This document shows, piece after piece, positions 1 to 62,565 of a stretch of 64,000 bases of DNA. The first letter of the stretch is position 1; each line of letters starts with the position of its first letter. The stretch is taken from NCBI RefSeq assembly GCF_965363235.1, contig NC_134845.1, forward strand, positions 21,702,524 through 21,766,523, in the 5' to 3' direction. The notes beneath the pieces are model-generated. The model was not told the origin of the DNA. It worked only from the letters and a program-made list of their open reading frames with translations, and did no database searches. Both the position numbers and the translations under genes were made by a program. This DNA is from Mytilus galloprovincialis (Eukaryota > Mollusca > Bivalvia > Mytilida > Mytilidae).

Positions 1-34
1 GTATTTGTTTGACATTTTAACTGTTTTGATCTGA

Positions 35-78
35 GCGTCACTGATGAGTCTTATGTAGACGAAACGCACGTCTGGCGT
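35..78 (+). ncRNA. Type I hammerhead ribozyme-like motif in a dispersed repeat
   Basis: All parts of a minimal type I hammerhead are present in order. Stem I 5' strand GCGTCA is at 35-40 and the core CTGATGA at 41-47. Stem II is GTCT/AGAC with loop TATGT (48-60). GAAA follows at 61-64, then a very short stem III, CG-CA-CG (65-70). The cleavage triplet GTC ends at 72, and the stem I 3' strand TGGCGT is at 73-78. Stem I closes as six pairs, two of them G-U. The flank TCCTGGTACCTTTGATAACT is shared in part with other copies, so this is a repeat family member and probably the end of a small mobile element. From memory, hammerheads with tiny stem III occur in metazoan retrozyme-type repeats, including mussels. 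Self-cleavage is not shown. Confidence 0.75.
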
Positions 79-944
79 ATTAAATTATAATCCTGGTACC
101 TTTGATAACTAATGAAACCTCAAATAAAAAAAAAAAAAATATGCATATGTTTTTTAAACTAAATGGATAGTTTTCATTATACAACTTATGTACACATACT
201 TTTTTCTAAGGAAAATTCTTTAATTTGTCCACATTTAAAAGAAGTTTACTTATTTTTAATTGCTTGCTGCCAGGAAGCAATTCGCCGACATATTTTCCGT
301 ATGCATAGTGACCTTAGCGTGACCCGTCTCGTAAAAATCCGGTGATAGCAATACGCATGAATCTGTCATTGAAATAAACAATTACCTGGTTGTATATGTT
401 AAACACGTGCTAAACACCCATGCTTTTTGTTGATTATTTACTATAAGGTGACAATCGGTAAAATTCGGCTTCAAAACACGGCATTTAATGAGTAGCCATA
501 TTTGTTAAATCATAACAGACTGATAGAAAAAAATTGACGATTATACGATAAATTTGCGTAAAAAATGATAAAATTGTGCACAGAGGACTAAGTTTATGAT
601 ATATACATGCATTGGTTCAAGAATTGGGCATGGATGAACATTAATTTTCACCAGTCACTCGTTTCTTATGACTTTAAAAGTACAATACACAATACAGTTT
701 CACAGAATTCTCACAGTTACTAAAGCGAGCTAAAAGTATCTAACCTAAATTGGATGCGTGAAATGATATTGTAAACTACACGTAAACATGGATGATCGAC
801 TTCAGGGTAGATTTTATGGATCAAATTAAAAACTCTTGCACCTATTATTTGAGTGGTCCAAATATTGCCTGCTGTTTCAAGTCTTAATTTCTGTCCTTAT
901 TCAGTATATATATCATTTTCTAGTGGTATTTTAAAGTTTCACGT

Positions 945-3892: not shown

Positions 3893-5640
3893 TTGGGGCA
3901 TTGACTTCTACGTCCTTGTGGCAATTAAAGTATGTATTGTGAACATCATAAGTTATGAGACTTTTATCTCAATACCTTCAAACTGAGAGACTATAGTAAT
4001 AACAGCTTAAAATAAGTATTATAACAAAGTTTAAAAAGTAGAATAATAAGAATCGGTGAGAGATATTTCTTTCATGGTTTACTTCAAATACAAGAATTTC
4101 TGTTTATAACATTTCTTGGAACATGTAAGTATAGAACGTCTCTTTACCACTTTAAGAAACAAAAACATATTGAAATATGAAATATACCACAAACATGAAT
4201 TTTGTTTTAGCATCCTGATCAACGATTATACAAAACAGTTACAACTACAATCATCCAAGTGTTTACCCATTACTTCTTGAAAGTGGTCAGCTTTATTTTG
4301 ATTTTAGGAGAAACGTTTTTATTTATATAAAATGTTTATCCTACAGTCTTGTCACGTTTCTCGAATTGCAAAACGTTGAAATGAGTAAATCTTTATGAAG
4401 AGTAAAACACCGCGCACATGTGATAAAGCGATACCAAAAAAGACAATATAAAACAATGATTAGGAAAGGAAAGACAATAAGACACATTTAGGATTTGTGT
4501 GCTGGTGTGTTGATGCAAAGATATCATAATTCATAAAAAAAAAATGTGAAAAGAAACAAGATAACAAGAAAAACAAAAATCCGCAATCTATTACACAAAT
4601 ACTGAACAGTGAGTATTATAATTTTTGACACAAGCATTTATAACTATAGACAAGGAAGTTGCAACAAGAAGTAGGTTTTTTTTAAATTTCTTTATCAAGG
4701 GATGTAAACTTTATTTTTATACTAAATTTAGCGTATAATTAGAAACTTAAGTTATTTTATCTTACGGATATACATGCAACATTCTAATTTGATTATTGTT
4801 GAATTAATGATATCTAGATATAACAAAACATGATGCATGCATGCAGCAAAACAACTTTATAATTATTGATAATGCAAAGAAAATATAAAACACAAATAGA
4901 AAATGGTATAACAATGCAAATGACAATACCAATATACATTTATTTAAATCCTCCTATTGAGAGGCCGTGATGTAAATGTCAACAGGATCTTACAACACAT
5001 AATCAGCCTTTACTTCCTCTTTTGTTAATGTGCTAGAGTCGTGTAGATAAACATGTTTGTGCTTATTGTTCCATAAAACTGACAGGAGCTGAAAATAGAC
5101 GGTCAAAAAGGTCAAATATCATTCCTACATCGGAGAAAGCAAAATTTTCTGGTAAAATGAACATTCTGCTTATTCACATTTGCATTTCAAACAAAAAGTG
5201 CACAATAGAAAATAAATTAATTTTTAAAATGCAAACTTTATTCAAGTTAAGGTTTTCTTCTAGCTTCTTCGTAATATGAGTCAGAAATGCTATCAAGTTA
5301 ATAACTTCATTTTTATATAAGATCCTATTAAACAATTTCTGAATTTTAAATGCATCGGTGACCTCAAGGTCATGGGTTCGATTCAAGATCACACCAAAAA
5401 CCTAGAAATAAGTATTGTCTGCTTCACTGCTAACACGGGACACTAAGGAAGAAAAGCATAAGAATGTTGGACCCAGAGAACGAAATGTGTCCAGGTTTGG
5501 TGACATGATAGCCTGTGGACTGCTAGCTTGTGAACTAGAACGTTAGTAATCCGTTTCGTGTCCAGTTTGTGTTTTCGTTAGATAATTATCAAGCTAGTTT
5601 TGAATTTGTGTATTTATTGTTTTTATGTTTCGGTTGTGGT
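3893..5640. other. Gene-free stretch
   Basis: Nothing recognisable is seen in this AT-rich sequence. A short GGGTTCGATTC near 5370 resembles a tRNA B box but lacks a convincing A box at the right distance. The segment near 5675 (TAGTCCAAATAATTAT) is shared with 44226-44240. Confidence 0.5.
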
Positions 5641-10319: not shown

Positions 10320-12915
10320 ACCGGTTTACATATAATTACCATGCTAAGTCCTCGTGATCCCTAACGATCTCTGTTAAAATTGAAAGTACAGGTAAAACGA
10401 TATCTTCTGAGAATGTATCACTGTTTGTCTTCATCGACAACATACAAAGCAAATGTTTCATAGCGCATACTCCTAATAAATAAAACGTCACTTCAATTTT
10501 ATTGTTAAGTATCACAATTGTTGTTATCTATATTGTATATTGATTTTTCTTTAAACATTATGTAAATCTTTTTTTTGGGTACATCGAACTGATTGTAATA
10601 CACTAAATCATATATATATACATATACACGTATATTTGTTTAATACAACATCAAAGGACAAATTGATATTATAAGGCACACTTTGTTATACAAATCTACA
10701 CCAATAACACCATACCAGTCAGGAGTCTACTTCGTCAAAATTATCTCCCCATTACGCCAGTTAATTTTCACAATCGTAGAAATGGAAGCCATTGTAGGGA
10801 TGACGCGCTACCAATTTTACTCTTTGAAACCGATAAATTTATCCACATTGCACCGTTACGATCCTTATATGTCAGTTGTATTTTAAAAGACAAATGTATC
10901 AACTAGCTAATGAGCATCAGTTAATGATCTTGTCTGCATTGATTCAATTTAAAACTATTGTCTGATCGCTTGTCAGGTGGAATTTTCGAAAATTAATAAA
11001 CATTTAAAAAAATTCTAATTAAATATTTCGTGGAAAGGCAGACTAGATTTTTTTATTGGTTGAAGACTATAAACCCTAGTTATCACACACAAAAAAAATA
11101 TAATTTTTCGAAGATATGCATTTTCATCATCCAACTTGAAAGACTGTCAAGTCCTTAGAGTAAAAAAAATAGCTATTCGAACCCACCTACTCTGTTTTTG
11201 TGATTCATTAGATAGGTATTTCACTTGACCCATATAGTACTGTGATTTTTTTATGTTATAAAGTCAACCTGTAGCTTTGATATATAAAAATAATAGAATC
11301 TGAAGCGAGACGATGTATGAAATATTCTTGATTTGTACGATATCAAGACAAAATATTCAACTCAAACACGCCCTAACATAAAAAGGTGCACTCGATTTTC
11401 CTCTTTCGATACTATTGTTACTCATTTTTTGGAATTTTTTCTTGAGTCACATAATGGAAGGACAGACACGAAAATTACTGAACTGATAGATTGATATGTT
11501 TTCCGTCCGTGGTAAATTGTTTTTTTAAATCGGAGGTTATGCATTTTTTTCATCCAACTTGAAAGATACCCATGTCTTCGACTTGATATTTAATTGTTCT
11601 ACTTAACTATGTACTAGATAAATGGAAAACTTATGCAAATGGTGTTTTTGAAATAAAACACTTCGTAATTGAGAAGAAAATTGTAATTTTGTTTGTTTCT
11701 ATTAACTTTTATTTTTTTGTTACTATAGTAAACATTACAGTATACATTTATCGCCTTCTCTAACAAAGAGCTTCGATTCTTTTGTTCTATTTCAACCGGG
11801 TTTCTGACTGATACGTTTTCAGAGATACATTGTACTTATTATGATTCATTATTTTAATTCAGATAAAATACTGCAAAAATAATTACATACATACTTATTT
11901 GAAATGGACTTAAAGAAAAAAAAAAAATATCCTGCAAAATTCTGAAAATCCCTTTCAGAAATATTGATGGTATAGCTACTATTATTTTAGAGAATGCTTG
12001 CATCTGGTATATCTTGTTGAACTTGTGAATATGGGTACTTTTACAACTAGCAAGTTTGCCTTACATTTCAATATTTTTATATACATATAGGCGACTTCAA
12101 ACATTTTGCAACAATCTTCCTACCGCCAACTTCCTTTTTCTCAGCTGAAACATACCCTCTGACCTATAGTACGGTGTATATAATTCTTGATCAATACCAT
12201 TCGACTGTGCTCAGACTGTTACAGACTTCATTCAATAGTGCGTGCTCCTGACAAAAAACACTTTTCTAACAGTGTAATGATAAAAAATATTGAAATCGAC
12301 CCTTTGTACGTTCTACGATCACCACAAAGAATGTATTAATCTATATGAATAGGTCAGTGTGCAGCTGTAATGTACTTTAGGCGACGCAGTCCTAGTCACA
12401 TCTCCGTTCGTTGATTATCGAGGAGATGCGATCCCCCGGATAATTGTAATTTATCTTGACTTGTATCTTCTTAATAGATTCATGAAATGTTTACATTGTG
12501 AAAATATTTTGAAACTAATACTTCATTTAAAAGCAAAGCCTCCCTAACGATTTAAAGTAACTAGTAATAATTTTGATTCATAATTAAGGTGTACTTTTTA
12601 ACATACCAAACAAATACTTGTTCTTTTCATCAAAAATAAGACATAGTATAAGATGGCATGTTTTTGTCACCAACACATGATCCCTTAGGTCAGACAGGCA
12701 ATCAATAAGAACTGGTAGAACCATTTGATTTCTCAATTTTGTACTAATATTCACAGCTCCCTAAAATTAGGTAAATAGGAAAAGTTTATGATTATTCAAT
12801 GTATCTACATCAGTATGTCTTTTAGTGTTAAGTAAAAATATCTATCTATATATATATATACTTGATTAATTTAATCCAGACTACAAATTAAGTTTGATTC
12901 ATGAAGAACTTTAGC
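10320..12915. other. Gene-free stretch downstream of the B-box/armadillo gene
   Basis: AT-rich sequence with no exon-like segment found on either strand. A possible poly(A) signal for the minus-strand gene (ATTAAA, reading 12875 to 12870) lies about 41 bases past its stop. A short GC-richer patch at about 12370-12440 contains CATCTCC and GGAGATG arms but could not be assigned. Confidence 0.45.
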
Positions 12916-15900
12916 CTAAACCTCCAGAATAATATTGTTCCGAGTATAATCATCGGTGATGTTTGCATTTGCGTTGTCCAGAATGATATCCATTCTGCAT
13001 AGCTGACCAAAACATCTCATAGCCAGATATATCAACCGGAATACACACTGAATATAAAGCCTTAGACTACGATAGTAAACAATTGACATAGCGTGAGTTA
13101 TAGGCGTCAGACGCTCAACACTGAACCTGAAAACTATGTCAATGTTTAAGATGTTTAAGACAGTAACACATTTGTCTAATATAAAATCTCAGCAAAGATA
13201 CCAAGCTAATCATTTAGTACGCCAGACGTGCGTTCGCATATGTCTCATCAGTGGTGCTCGAATCAAAACCAGTCAAAATGCCATTTCAAATACGATATTG
13301 AAGTGCGTTGGAAACAAGCATTTAAAAAATAATGCAAATTCTGCTTTATCTGACTTAGGCCATCTATGCCTGTTGTATAATAAACCTCAGTGTTCGAAAT
13401 AGTTCTATATAACAAACACATCAATAAGGTAAACACAGCTATTTTGAATGTCTCATTTAATAGCCAAGAGTCAACCCAACATTTAACACATGTATCCTTA
13501 AAAAGTATAAAACAATTCTTTAAAATCATGGAAGAGGGTATAAAGGTTCCCTTTTATACTGAATACGGGTAGTTTTTTTTAAAAGGAATTCAACATGGTA
13601 TTATCCATGGGTCTCTACTAGCCAACTGTTTGGAACTACAGAAAAATACACACACAGCCAGTCAGCTAACAGAAAAGAGGGAAAGCATAAGCCCATTTTA
13701 AATTTCAATGCGCCTCAATTTCTTAACCTGATCAGTAACTATCAAACATTTGACAGCAAATGACGTATGAGACCTAACACGTAAAAAGCTATATGACCGA
13801 AACATTAAAGAATTCATCTTTTTGGTCAAGTTTGCTTAGGGAGTTTGAAGCAGTATTTCTCAATAAATTATAAATCTATCTACACATAATTAAAGAGACG
13901 ATTGTTAAAATTCACGTCAGTACCGAGGCACTAAGTTCATGATGATACCCTCAAGGACTTAACTTCCACCATAAGTGTTATTACACAGTGCAAGTAAATG
14001 AAAATTACACTTAAAAGTTACGTGCAGGAATAGAATATGTTGTTATCAACATAACCTGTTATTACATCTGAAGAATATGTTGCTAAGGTATGAACATACA
14101 AAATATAAAGAAATGAAATCGAATTTGACATTAGTAAAAATAAAGAATACTTACATGCCAGTTAAACGGTAGGAGGTTTATTAATACTCCCATTGTTGTC
14201 CTCAACGTTATTGGTTGTGTTTTTTCATTAGTGATGATTTTACAGAACAGTCCAATAGAGGCATCCTTCCACAGTACTTCATATTCATGAACTGGACGCT
14301 CTGAATCGTCTGTTGGTAAACCATGACCATCTTTTCTACAAAGGTCGAAGTAATTAGTTGGTAAATAGTCTTTTTTTTTTTATTAATTTGGATGTACTTC
14401 AAAATAGACGCTAATTCGCACTAATATTAGGTATTGTTTAACAACCTTATTTTGATTGAAAAATATCAAAATTCGTCAATTGTTGTTTAGTACCTGTAAA
14501 CACTTTATTTTTTTCATGATAACTGAAGTCAAATTCACTTACTTTTCTTTTGTCTTTTTCTGTCTACCTTTATATATCTTCGAGAAGATTGCAGTCAATC
14601 CTACAATAGTATAAGAGATAATATAAAATATTTTAACCACTGCAAACATTGAATAAACATTAAATCAAATCAAACATCACGGGTGTCATTCGGTTTAACG
14701 AGAGAAATTATCGTGAAAGAATATCTAACGGCGGTCAAGTATTGAGAGACGATCGTGAAAGTTCTAATAACGGATCGTGAAAGACAATTAATCGAGAAGA
14801 CATATGAAAGGTCAATAAATATTCTAATTTAATTAATTACACAGACAAATTATCGACAAAGTAAAACTGTCTGTCAAAATGGTTCAACATTATGATCAGT
14901 ATGTGAGAATGTCCAGTTTTTTTAAAAGTACATAACAACAAAAGGCAGATTGCTTCTCGACATTTCAAACATGATTTTTTCATAATTCGACTAGAAAAAC
15001 TACTTTTATCCGAATAAGGGCATTCTATGTGAATTATTCAAATGGTTCTCATAGTTATTTTGAATAAACATAATCTGAAACTTGGCAAATAAAGAATTAT
15101 TTACACAAAAATTTATTGTTCGGATCGTGAAAGATCACGTACCACATTTTTGAAGATCGTGAAAAGGATCGTGAAAAATCTGATACTTCGAAGATGTTCA
15201 AATTATTTTTCAATTATATCATAATTAATATTTATTATTGGTATTGAGAAAAGCTAGATAGGTCAACATCCTCAATAGGTTTAAGCATTTCAAAGTATTA
15301 TTATTTTCAGAAAATGAAATGTAAAATAGTTGGATGATTGTAGGATGAAGCTTTTTATTGTCATGTGAAGTACTCACTTATCACGAGTAAGGGGATACCC
15401 ACATTTTGTATATTGGATCCTGTAAACTACATGTCCGTCAGAAAGGATTCACCTGATCCCGAATTTGTTTCATTTTATGGATGAAGATTCATTTTGTGGT
15501 CAAGTCCGTATCGCGGATTCGTTAAGCTTTAGGATAACTGTCTGTTGTTATGATTGTAAGGTGTACATTTTCGACTTCTGCAAGGTTTCAAATAACATCT
15601 AACTCATTATCATGCATTATGTTCGTTTTATGCTGTTTAGCATTTCGGATATATACTTGTATGCTATAGCGCCAAGGTATTTCGTATATGGTGTACATAT
15701 CTGTCTGAATGTTTCATAGATGACCATGATGACTTCAATTGTATTTGATATATTGCATGATAGTAAGATGCCTATGTTCCGAATTAATTGGCCAAGCTTA
15801 ACTTTAACATTTGTCAGTTTCTAAGACACTATAAGAATCGGAACACATTTATTTGGTGTACAGCATATTTGTAGAGATCTGTATGGCATGGTATTCTGAC

Positions 15901-21961: not shown

Positions 21962-22446
21962 TGTCACGTTTTTCCTTATGCAACTATGGATGCCTATTGT
22001 AATGAATGTTTAAATGTTGTGTATATGTTAGTGTGTATATTATTGCATGAATAATTCGCAATGGTCATCTCAATAACACATGTGGCGTAGATTGTTGACA
22101 TACTTCATATTTAGAACGCAATGATAATTTTAAAATACCTGAGAGTTGAAGGTCATATACAGGTAATTGACACGGGTTTCAAAACATCAATAATATTATG
22201 GATGGAAGAGAGTTTATTGTGCATATACATTTAGACCGATATACTGATAATCTAAATGAATATTTTCCAATTTTTTTTTAACTTACACTAAAATGATTCA
22301 TATATCTTCGAAGGGGATTTCTTTAACCTGTTTTAATTACATAAAAATATTTTAACACTAAATTTGAACAACAAAGTAAGACTTCAAAGTTTATAAAACA
22401 CTGACATTATAAAAACTCATCAAAGATACAATGCGTATGATTTTAT

Positions 22447-22486
22447 ACGCCAGAGGCGCGTTTCCCCCTAGTCACACTAATGGCGC
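22447..22486 (-). ncRNA. Hammerhead-like repeat relic, stem I preserved
   Basis: On the minus strand GCGCCA and TGGCGT still pair over six positions, and GAAACGCGCC survives. The CTGATGA core has become TTAGTGTGA-like sequence. It is a decayed copy of the family seen at 35-78. Confidence 0.5.
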
Positions 22487-24000
22487 TAGAATCAAAACAG
22501 TTATTGATTGTTAATGTCGACACAAAAGAGCTGCCTGTTGGGCTTAACCAGTGACATAGAAATTCGACAAAAATACCAAACGTAAATATTTATTTACGCC
22601 AGTGTATGAACTTTTCACACAAAAGTTGACATTGGTTATCATGAAAACCAAGAATTCTTTAACAGCTAGTCAAACAGTAAGAGTATTTTTTTTTCTTTTT
22701 TTATTTCGGATGATTTTGTTAACTAGTAACGACTTATTTTGAAGTTAAGGTTAATGGTCACTCGACAAAGAAAAAAACCCAACACTATTGTCTTTGTTCA
22801 CTCGCAAGTATGTGCGCGCGATATCAGAATATACGAAAGGTTTAGAAATACTAAAGCACATAACATTGTAAATGATGGCTACAGTAGTTTACAGATTTTC
22901 AAATTTCGTTACTCGATTAGGGAAATTAAGGTTACAAATAGTTATAAAAGGTACCAGGCTTATAATTTGATACAAAAACCGAGAGCATCGTATGAACTCC
23001 AATAAAGAGCTACACAAACTGTTACCGGCTCTTATTTCTTTCAATTTTCTTTATCATTTTGAATATCTGTATCCCTTCTTGTTCTTTTTGTTCACACGTA
23101 AACTACATGGACGTCTCCTATTCCATTCCAGATTATCTGTATCTATGTAACAGAAAACAACGATCAATCAATCGGCTTAGGAAATTTCTGCCTTCTATAA
23201 AACCGTTCGTATATTTTGATCAGCTATAATTATATGTGCATTATCAAGAACAACTGAAAACAAATTTTTCCTCCCTCAGCGCACCTCATACATCTTTCTT
23301 CAATTCTGATGGAAAGTGTTATAGTAAAAAATATGTAATACCTAGTCCTGATAATGATATCATTTTTACTGGCTGTTAATTTGCATGTAAAAGATAGACG
23401 AAATATATCAAATGGACATTCAAGTTATAAGTCAAAAATATACTGACAATGTCATGGTACAAAAGAAAAAGACCAAAAGATATACAACAGTATAAAATAT
23501 AACAGATCCTGCTCTACATGTGGTACCCGTAGTGCTGCTCATGTTAGTACAAACCAGGTGATGAGTCTTATTCAGTAGGTTACATCCGGAGAAAAGAGGA
23601 CGGATTGTGGTGACAGTCGGAACACATATGTCTTCTATGTCTTCGAAGCAGGAAACGCTTTCCTTCACGAAGCACCCGGTCTTGCTCCTTTAAAAGCTTA
23701 TGCGAATTCATGCGCTCTGTGTTTACCTTGATTTTATGTTTTAATTGATTTATTAGAATTGTACATCGTAAACTACTGTTTCCTCCTCTAATATAATACA
23801 AAATTACAAGTACATTCGTCTTTTCTGTGGTCTTGCATATCGAAGGTGCATTATTTCATTTTAAGTCTATGGCAGACCGTTTTACTTTTTATTCTAATTT
23901 CAAGATATCTCATATCATATATAAGATATATCATTTAAAATATTTGATATATTGTAGAAGATATCTTATATAATTTATACGATATTTCATATAGAGTATA

Positions 24001-30845: not shown

Positions 30846-31114
30846 TCTGATTTTAAAGATGCCACAGTTGATTGTGTTTTTATTCCTAGAGAGTATCACC
30901 AGCCCAGTAACTAGCACATCTGTGCTGACATGAACTATCATTGATATGGTCATAATTATGAATTAACTGTTTACAAACTTTTGATTTTTTGAAATACTAA
31001 GGCTTTTCTACCTCAGGAACAGATTACCTTAGATGTATTTGGCATACTTTCTAGGAATTGTTTGTCCTCAATGCTCTTCAACTTTGTACAATATTTGGCC
31101 TATTCAACTTTCTA

Positions 31115-31157
31115 GTGTCACTGAAGAGTCTTTTGTAGACAAAATGCATGTCTGGCA
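31115..31157 (+). ncRNA. Hammerhead-like copy with mutated core and compensated stem I
   Basis: Order as at 35-78: GTGTCA, CTGAAGA (core changed), GTCT-TTTGT-AGAC (stem II intact), AAAA in place of GAAA, TGCATGTC, TGGCAC. GTGTCA and TGGCAC still form six pairs although both strands differ from the copy at 35-78. The core changes should abolish cleavage. The flank AATCCTGGTATCA matches the family. Confidence 0.6.
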
Positions 31158-31559
31158 CAAATACGAAATATCAATCCTGGTATCAATTATTTTATTTTAT
31201 TTATTAACTTCCTTAAGTGTTCTATACCCCCTTAACCCACCATTTTCTTCTAAAAATGCTGTACCCAGTCAGGAATATGACAGTTGTTTCCACTGATCCT
31301 GTTGGCTAATATAGTCAAGCATTTGTTCTTGAAAGTTTTTATTAGCTAGCCTTTTCAATTTACTTTGAAGTTCAGCATTTAAAAAAAATAAAAAAATATG
31401 CAAATCAACCCTAAATCCTTTCATGATTTTATTGATGTCAAACTAGTTTTGACTAACTCTTCATTGTATGAAAGACATTGTTAATTGTTTAACTTATGCT
31501 TGTACACATTCTTTGTTTGTTGATCAAATTATAATAATAAAGAAATATAACTCAACAAA

Positions 31560-34500: not shown

Positions 34501-37500
34501 ATCAAAAAGGTTATTGTAAAATTTTGATGTCATAATACAAAATATCTGACACCAAGTGATTGTTGCATGACGTCAATAAGTCAAACAGCAGATTCTCTGG
34601 CCAACTGGAACAGATTTCCAAAGGTGTACAGGCATTTTTTGTTAACCTTAACTTTAACGCCATGTCTTATGAACTTTTACAAATCATTTAAGAGGGTAAA
34701 GATATCTTCAGATCAATTATCATCTGTCTTTGGTGAATAAGAGTCTCATTGAAAAATCAAACCATAGCTCCTTTTTTTCCTATTTTGCAAAATACCTTAT
34801 TTTTTTGTGAATTTTTGATAAACTGGAGTTTATAAAAATATGTATATCACTAATTAAAAAAATAGAACATGACATTACAGGAGTAGACAATATTTATGCA
34901 ACTAAAATTTTAACCTCAATATAATATAAACATATAACTACCACTGCAACATCCTTACTATACATACGTACAACTAAAACAGCTACATCTCTACGTTTCA
35001 GACTATACTGCTGTTCGAGTCTCTTTCTTGTATCCTCTGGTAAGGGAGGTAACTTTTGCAGAATATCATCAATGTTTATCACAGACATTTTACTTGATAC
35101 AGTTTTAACAGACTCACTATCAAACAAATGGAGTGGTGGTAAGTTTGGCTCTGGCATAAACCTGTAATCTGTTTTTACTTCCTTATCTCTCATTGGTACT
35201 GTTTCGCTATAAATAGAATTAGTTTCTATTTAACAGCTAGCATATTTTTTTTACTATATTTCAATAACACATTAAAGCTATTGTGAGTTATTCTGTTTTA
35301 AGATACAATAAAGCATTATGGTTTAGACTAAAATGAGATTGTAGTCCAAAGGCTAAAGTTTGGAAATAAAGATTTCTTAATATGAATTTCACATGAAATT
35401 TTCTAATTTGTATATTTGTAATAGGAAAAATGTGACCAAAATATTTTGGAAAGGATGGAAACAAGGACAGATGTAAAACAGTTTATTCCCTCCTTTTGTG
35501 AATACTTACTTTCATCAATAAACAGTGAGATTGCTAGTTATAAAACCTTTATCTAGTACATAGACAGAGATTCAGGGTGCATTAGGCACAAGCATCAGCC
35601 TTCACTGGCAAATAGCACCATAAAGATTAATCTTAAATGAAACACCTGATTGTATTTTAATACGTAGATATCCCTAACACTGTTTAGTCTAATGATAATG
35701 AATGTAAAATGTCATTGCTATACTAAATAGTTTCCTCATGAATAATCTGGTGAATCTCTAAAATTTAGTTTTTCTTTTGAAAAAGCTGTAAGAAATTTCT
35801 TGCAGTGAACAAAAGAGGTGTTTTTTTCCGACCATAAACTTGATGTGATATAGAATAAACTGTGGAATTAAATATCAATTGTATAAGAATTTACTTTACT
35901 TACTCTATTTCAGTATCAAACGATCTTGTCTCATTCTCTACTATCCCACCATTTTCTAACAATTTTATTTGCCTTTTTACTTCAAAACCTACAAAATGAA
36001 GTTAAATGTTATACTGTAAATACAGAAATGCATGCATTTATTATAATGATTTGTCAAATAGACAAAAATGTTATTTTAATTTTTGCAATATTGATAAAAA
36101 AAAATCCTGTTGAATTCATATAATTTTTTTGGAAATGGGAGTTTCAATTATTGTGATTATATATCACCTTGTCGCATCTTGAAATAATTTCTGAAATTAC
36201 AGTACATGTATATGATTTGTAAAAAATAATTAGGGAGGAGTAATGACTTGATAAAAAAGCTTAGGTCACTAAGTATTAAAAAAGCTTATCCGCCCTTTTA
36301 AGAATAACTGTTAAATGTCATAGTTAAATAATAGCAGTCTTTTCAGCTACATGTTCCACACAATTATTGTATATATAGCACTGTGGATTCAGTATTATTT
36401 GTGGAATACCAATTTTCATGGTGTAAACCCCTTAAAATATATATTCATCCACATAAATTTCTTTAAGACTGTACGAAAGCCTTAAAAAAAAATACAGTCT
36501 TAAAACAAGAGTGCACACACTGAAATGTCTCGCCTTCTTTACTAAGCATTGATATTATGTTGATAGTCCTAAGTATAAAGCTTTATTACAACTGTCACAT
36601 AAACTTAACATTAACCAAGATAGCTAAACAAAGACCAATGAACCAAGAAAATGAGGTCAAGGTCAGATGAACCATGCCAGGCAGACATGTACAGCTAACA
36701 ATGCTTCCATACAACAAAACATAGTTGACCTATTACTTATAGTTTAAGAAAAATAGACCAAAACACAAAAACTTAACACTGTGCAATGAACCGTGAAATT
36801 GAGGTCATGGTCAAATAAAACCTGCAGGACTGACATATAGATCATAATATATTTCCATACACCAAATATAGTTGACCTTTGGCATATAATATAAGATAAA
36901 AAGACCAAAATTTAAAAACATTAACTTTGACCACTGAACCATGAAAATGAGGTCAAGGTCAGATGATATCTGCTCGCTAGACATGTACACCTTACAATCA
37001 TTCCATACAACAAATATAGTAGACCTATTGCATAAACTATGAGAAAAACAGACCAAAACACAAAAACTTAACTATAACCACTGAACCATGAAAATGAGGT
37101 CAAGGTCAGATGACACCTGCCAGTTGGACATGTACACCTTACAGTCCTTCCATACATCAAATATACTAGCCCTATTGCTTATAGTATCTGAGATATGGAC
37201 TTGACCACCAAACCTTAACCTTGTTCACTGATCCATGAAATGAGGATGAGGTCAAGTGAAAACTGTCTGACGGGCATGAGGAGCTTGCAAAGTATGCACA
37301 TACCAAATATAGTTATCCTATTACTTATAATAAGAGAGAATTCAACATTACAAAAATTCTGAACTTTTTTTTCAAGTGGTCACTGAACCATGAAAATGAG
37401 GTCAAGGACATTGGACATGTGACTGACGGAAACTTCGTAACATGAGGCATCTATATACAAAGTATGAAGAATCCAGGTCTTTCACCTTCTAAAATATAAA

Positions 37501-49773: not shown

Positions 49774-62565
<12,792 letters not shown>

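Follow-up and report, generated by a model that had tools for sequence, protein, structure and literature searches.

The window analysed here, a stretch of 64,000 nucleotides from the genome of Mytilus galloprovincialis, contains next to its left edge a short motif with the layout of a self-cleaving ribozyme. This locus raises the question of what kind of element has deposited the motif and how such an element is copied into new genomic places. A preliminary description of the window had recognized a complete minimal type I hammerhead within a dispersed mobile repeat and proposed that this copy may self-cleave and belong to a small retroelement producing circular RNA. Our analysis traces the repeat through the genome and defines the boundaries of its insertions, which bear on the manner of its copying.

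The hammerhead motif and its relatives in the window

The presence of a complete hammerhead at 35–78 is borne out by direct reading, which identifies the CUGANGA, GAA and NUH elements of the core and three helices, open at stem I, with a total of 12 pairs that are without exception either standard or G-U. The features of this motif, of the unit in which it resides and of its relatives are listed below by window position.

1–111, plus strand: 3' portion of a retrozyme unit truncated at its 5' end, from a BLAST comparison of an extant tandem copy with the extended locus L009
35–78, plus strand: minimal type I hammerhead ribozyme, from direct reading and Rfam RF00163
35–40/73–78, plus strand: stem I, GCGTCA/TGGCGT, 6 pairs, 2 of them G-U
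41–47, plus strand: conserved CTGATGA
48–51/57–60, plus strand: stem II, 4 bp, GTCT-TATGT-AGAC
61–63, plus strand: conserved GAA
64–65/70–71, plus strand: stem III, AC/GT, with loop GCAC
between 72 and 73, after C72, plus strand: predicted cleavage site
79–111, plus strand: tail, from the ribozyme to the 3' insertion boundary common to 35 of 38 informative loci
104–111, plus strand: GATAACTA at the end of the tail
13182–13437, minus strand: degraded relative with hammerhead and part of the body, ribozyme broken (68% to the query L010, E 5.5e-23)
22410–22505, minus strand: degraded relative, ribozyme broken
22936–22991, minus strand: relative with the tail only, without hammerhead
30858–31196, plus strand: degraded relative of almost unit length (81% to a copy of the second subfamily, E 1.2e-83)

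The match to a covariance model that the preliminary description had named as a check exists, although at a modest score. Rfam Hammerhead_1 (RF00163) aligns to the whole of 35–78 at a score of 30.1 bits (E=1e-5 when 300 bp are searched and E=0.0022 for the whole 64-kb window), which does not reach its gathering score of 34 bits, and a default Rfam scan of the window consequently reports no hammerhead. Energy-based folding of the isolated 44-mer yields an alternative structure at -8.9 kcal/mol vs. -5.7 kcal/mol for the hammerhead, and in a context of 96 bases the minimum-energy fold also differs from that of the ribozyme. Folded as a circle, one unit shows no extra stability (-66.9 vs. a mean of -70.9 with sd 5.0 in 60 shuffles).

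The copy that carries the motif is a single truncated unit of about 140 bp with one hammerhead. In L009, where position 5001 corresponds to window position 1, it extends from 4973 or 4969 to about 5111, which places its 5' end about 28–32 bases to the left of the window edge, and BLAST with the extant tandem copy detects no second unit beside it within the 6 kb of this locus. With its 5' truncation and only one hammerhead, cleavage of a transcript is conceivable, but a unit circle could not be released unaided. The proposed link to a small circular-RNA retroelement thus holds for membership in a retrozyme family and not for an ability of this copy to excise a circle alone; beyond a possible cutting of read-through transcripts, as predicted from the motif, the window copy is probably inert.

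The three decayed copies described previously are real relatives as judged by BLAST, and the ribozyme is broken in every one of them. At 13219 (81 bp, 80% identity, E 1e-13), CTGATGA is intact and the pairing of stem II and the A following GAA are lost; at 22447 (55 bp, 78% identity, E 1e-6), it is CTGATGA that has been lost, and at 31115 (303 bp, 75% identity, E 1e-51) the G of GAA is altered. None of the three gives a hammerhead match at E<10 in an Rfam scan of the whole window. In a comparison of the window with multiple queries, where matches with no more than two supporting queries were discounted as stemming from other repeats that flank the query copies, the minus strand at 13851–14036 displays a weak similarity of 65% to the retrozyme unit from 18 queries and is possibly another very old copy.

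Repeats of other character are found elsewhere in the window. Long self-complementary stretches at 57014–57139 and 51209–51349 give sub-threshold matches to several microRNA models on both strands and are probably inverted-repeat transposons rather than microRNAs. Successive pieces of the minus strand at 36690–37452, an internally repetitive dispersed repeat, resemble the upstream flank of L051, one of them at 93%.

A retrozyme family of tandem units

Across the 1.385 Gb of the genome (331 contigs, both strands), a 26-base pattern of the hammerhead core matches at 12,021 places and the reversed control pattern at 0, which excludes a chance origin of the motif. A 34-base sequence that begins with CTGATGA and closes two bases beyond the cleavage site has 8,423 exact matches; the core is not lost across the family, an outcome that the preliminary description had named as counting against its reading. 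Many core places are spaced by ~354–356 bp and define a repeat unit of ~355 bp that is found singly or in tandem, in support of the view of a dispersed mobile family. In unit size, ribozyme type and tandem arrangement it agrees with metazoan non-LTR retrozymes, which consist of repeats of 170–400 nt bounded by type I hammerheads, occur in tandem copies and are further characterized by a low G+C content, by the lack of LTR, primer-binding site and polypurine tract, by the absence of protein coding and by circular RNA. A second subfamily, in which the tail has diverged, is present at 120 exact places genome-wide.

The tandem organization is exemplified by an array at G000:C1:72500-75000 (L010), which contains three hammerheads with a period of 356 bp and in which the listing of open reading frames reveals short frames only. 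The array lies within what we take, from its motifs, to be a disrupted reverse-transcriptase-like gene; three pieces of this surrounding sequence found no match in Pfam and one piece none in the PDB. Units inside one array share 98.8% identity (4 pairs) vs. 95.8% between arrays (32 pairs), a greater likeness that would follow from repeated copying of one template and equally from local duplication.

Arrays of other layout were also encountered. Among the places listed for G000:C2:103597749-103749252, 23 hammerheads share one altered base and many are about 5.67 kb apart, a series that appears to be a retrozyme copy riding in a larger tandem repeat. Six hammerhead places at G000:C7:83861171-83862203 follow an unusual period of 200 bp, and three at G000:C9:13272727-13275557 an equally unusual one of 1399 bp. 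At L056–L058 (G000:C4:46516445-46517595), at least five tails of the second subfamily are arranged in tandem ~281 bp apart with no hammerhead visible.

The statement in the preliminary description that retrozyme-like repeats occur in mussels has proved apt. Compared by description rather than by sequence, the family agrees in size, ribozyme type, subfamilies and abundance with the M. galloprovincialis retrozyme, for which self-cleavage and circular RNA have been documented (Cervera & de la Pena 2020, PMC7229834). Both have a type I hammerhead, tandem repeats of ~350–390 bp, thousands of copies and two similar ribozyme families or subfamilies, and no protein was noticed; the 12,021 core matches found here compare with ~5000 that were reported for another assembly under other criteria. 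The LTR retrozymes of plants, as portrayed in two sources (PMC7229834, PMC7761336), are similarly non-autonomous, contain hammerheads and proceed through circular RNA intermediates, which would also be formed by the family described here. They are described as having type III hammerheads, LTRs, a primer-binding site, a polypurine tract and circles of 600–800 nt, in contrast to the type I hammerhead and ~355-bp unit found here.

Insertion boundaries and the decay of copies

To define where insertions begin and end, an extant tandem copy served as reference for 43 loci, namely 42 on contig 1, drawn from the first core places listed, and L009. Five of them (L098, L099, L100, L104 and L108) run to the edge of the extracted piece and are uninformative for the 3' end, which leaves 38; L098 and L099 resemble copies of one duplicated locus. 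In 35 of the 38 informative loci, the insertion terminates within about 4 bases of GATAACTA|TTTA, at a position 39–43 nt past the cleavage site. This point, the GATAACTATTTA boundary, is the common 3' insertion boundary of the family. L006 attains the boundary one unit later, and L016, L023 and L091 contain small indels within the tail, with L023 being the least certain call. The exceptions are L008 and L014, which end before the boundary, and L095, which ends exactly at the cleavage site. None of 34 junctions continues after TTTA with the next base of the unit (C), and no poly(A) or simple-repeat tail was found at the sampled-locus junctions inspected. On their 5' side, the 43 insertions are ragged and start 23 to 970 nt ahead of the last core, the longest of them, at L016, touching the edge of its extracted piece; 11 are longer than one unit and 32 are not.

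The same boundary is apparent on a genome-wide level, where 12,314 tails read to GATAACTA and the next eight bases of the unit are present in 2,761 of them (22%), compared with 70% (8,423/12,021) that retain eleven extra fixed bases inside the ribozyme. We estimate the share of tails that end at the common boundary at roughly half to 70%, an approximate figure because some arrays, such as L098 and L104, continue with the variant TTAACACC, which escapes the long pattern. In the second subfamily, inspection by eye of 30 loci that were selected by the tail itself located the homologous boundary, with the unit lost right after the tail in 21 and continuing as further units in 9. What had looked like another class of 3' ends, at +165 to +213, was dismissed as an artefact of the edges of extracted pieces and of arrays running on. 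In a test for target-site duplications, which took in 34 of the 43 loci (the other 9 having no usable boundary), the mean longest shared word was 5.09 vs. 4.77 after permutation, and 25 of 500 permutations were as high, a signal too weak to be convincing.

The fate of the ribozyme after insertion was assessed from genome-wide pattern counts. A catalytic G is altered at 287 places and the G of loop II at 286, and selection on genomic copies is at this level rejected; by this test, the copies decay neutrally once inserted. A comparison of the two subfamilies included 32 of the 43 loci of the first (those with a 5' extent below 60 nt, L095 among them, being left out) and 22 of the 30 loci of the second (leaving out 8 without a visible hammerhead). 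The majority letter differs in 1 of 44 ribozyme columns vs. 60 of 295 others (Fisher p=0.0014), which supports a constraint on the ribozyme in active lineages, in a comparison that is not free of selection bias as the first set was picked by the core and hammerhead-less loci are missing from the second.

Proposed copying from an internal start and candidate helpers

A common 3' end combined with ragged 5' ends suggests that reverse transcription starts at one defined position inside a circular or uncut RNA. In the scheme that we infer for this family, tandem copies would be transcribed and their hammerheads would cut the RNA into units of ~355 nt, which would be closed into circles. A reverse transcriptase provided by another element would copy the circular or uncut multimeric RNA into the target, beginning at one internal site 39–43 nt past the cut and continuing for differing lengths, in some cases beyond one full turn of the unit. 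The copies so made, whether single or tandem, would share their 3' end and be ragged at the 5' end, with the copy in the window constituting a short product of this process. On this basis, the sequence at 1–111 together with about 28–32 bases to its left is probably a non-autonomous non-LTR retrozyme that is truncated at its 5' end, has one hammerhead and was copied in the proposed way; as for the internal start of reverse transcription itself, the boundaries make it the likelier course by a modest margin.

Initiation at the 3' end of a cleaved linear RNA is unlikely since insertions would then stop at the cut, where a search for a genomic scar found no genome-wide excess, with 141 places having a non-T base right after the cut vs. 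306 changed one base further on (23 of the latter being listed from one array on C2). At L095 (G000:C1:6566490-6567710), a copy that ends at the cut is fused there to an antisense piece of retrozyme, a junction that may have arisen by chance or may reflect reverse transcription involving the 3' end of a cleaved RNA.

A precedent for an internal start is offered by PAc, a Penelope-like element (PLE) of Anolis, whose purified enzyme initiates in vitro inside its RNA and downstream of the hammerhead (Frangieh et al. 2024, PMC11167929). In this study, cleavage by the hammerhead is not required for insertion and the unprocessed RNA is named as dominant substrate; both points speak for uncut RNA rather than circles as template. 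PAc resembles the family described here in the placement of a hammerhead near the 3' end of the insertion and in its tandem or partial-tandem copies. Its genomic copies likewise end at a site inside the RNA past the cut, at 85–92 nt (by our own arithmetic from the published values) as opposed to 39–43 nt in the retrozyme. More generally, PLEs differ from the retrozyme by encoding a reverse transcriptase and an endonuclease and by the sequence of the tail and its distance. A 3' end downstream of the hammerhead with ragged 5' ends, as found in 35 of 38 loci, is expected of an element mobilized by PLEs and would also fit copying initiated at an RNA end. Cervera & de la Pena regarded PLEs as strong candidate helpers from shared features and co-occurrence, left the mobilizing enzyme open and proposed target priming of circles as one option (PMC7229834).

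The genome appears to be rich in PLEs, as indicated by 1001 GIY-YIG candidates, of which 147 among 150 scored have E<=0.001. Within 30 GIY-YIG loci and three upstream stretches that are part of PLEs, no PLE was found to share the retrozyme tail, which occurs in the 30 loci solely in separate retrozyme copies at L076, L078 and L083, and the three upstream stretches show no similarity to the retrozyme. Of two such stretches scanned for RVT_1, L111 scored above the cut-off and L109 below it (E=1.9e-6). The two best-sampled PLE families contain a different hammerhead-like or degenerate motif and (TA)n ends. Other hammerhead-like motifs were observed downstream of the endonuclease region at L081–L088, L078–L079 and L059, as for example CTGAAGATTGCCAGAAGGCATGAAAGCGCTA in L081, and at L059 on each strand. 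The assignment of the helper to the PLE type is in our judgement tentative, falling somewhat short of an even chance, and a helper of LINE type is possible. We would place at a comparable level the more specific proposal that circles are copied in a PLE-like manner from a fixed start about 40 nt past the cut, with retrozymes parasitizing a PLE-type enzyme and circularity supplying both flanks of the start.

The absence of a helper with the retrozyme tail from the PLE loci examined would also agree with a different origin of the common boundary, which could be the 3' end of a linear transcript defined by termination or processing and copied from this end by a LINE-type machinery as for SINEs, with circles as by-products. 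Such end-initiated copying equally yields fixed 3' and ragged 5' ends. It is at odds with the lack of poly(A) or simple-repeat tails at the junctions inspected, with tandem units and head-to-tail arrays, which require a multimeric or circular template, and with circles being reported as the main form in mussel (PMC7229834), and we consider it rather unlikely. Much further down the scale stands a satellite that has spread at the DNA level by recombination without RNA intermediate. Long and higher-order arrays, such as those described above on C7, C9 and C2, would suit this explanation, but 32 of 43 loci do not exceed one unit and have the 3' end in common but not the 5' end.

It is at least as improbable that the hammerhead belongs to a PLE, as part of its pseudo-LTR, and not to a retrozyme. 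Hammerheads do occur in PLEs, according to two studies (PMC7761336, PMC11167929), and GIY-YIG matches are abundant. However, the sequence upstream of the hammerhead is a repeat unit of ~355 bp in which no coding region was recognized, the tail at 3 of 30 GIY-YIG loci belongs each time to a separate retrozyme copy, and the PLE families of this genome, where sampled, have other hammerhead-like motifs and (TA)n ends. The preferred reading remains a retrozyme copied from an internal start.

Collectively, the element at the edge of the window is of a known kind, and it is its insertion boundary that may be new. We found no description of a fixed 3' boundary for retrozymes, mollusc hammerheads or PLE hammerheads in the parts of the open-licence literature consulted, and it may be described elsewhere. 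The boundary turns thousands of genomic copies into a record of the position at which a natural RNA containing a ribozyme apparently starts to be reverse transcribed. Its location 39–43 nt past the cut makes it less likely that copying begins at the 3' end of a cleaved RNA, and the fact that it is common to the family makes the model of a circular or uncut template with an internal start directly testable.
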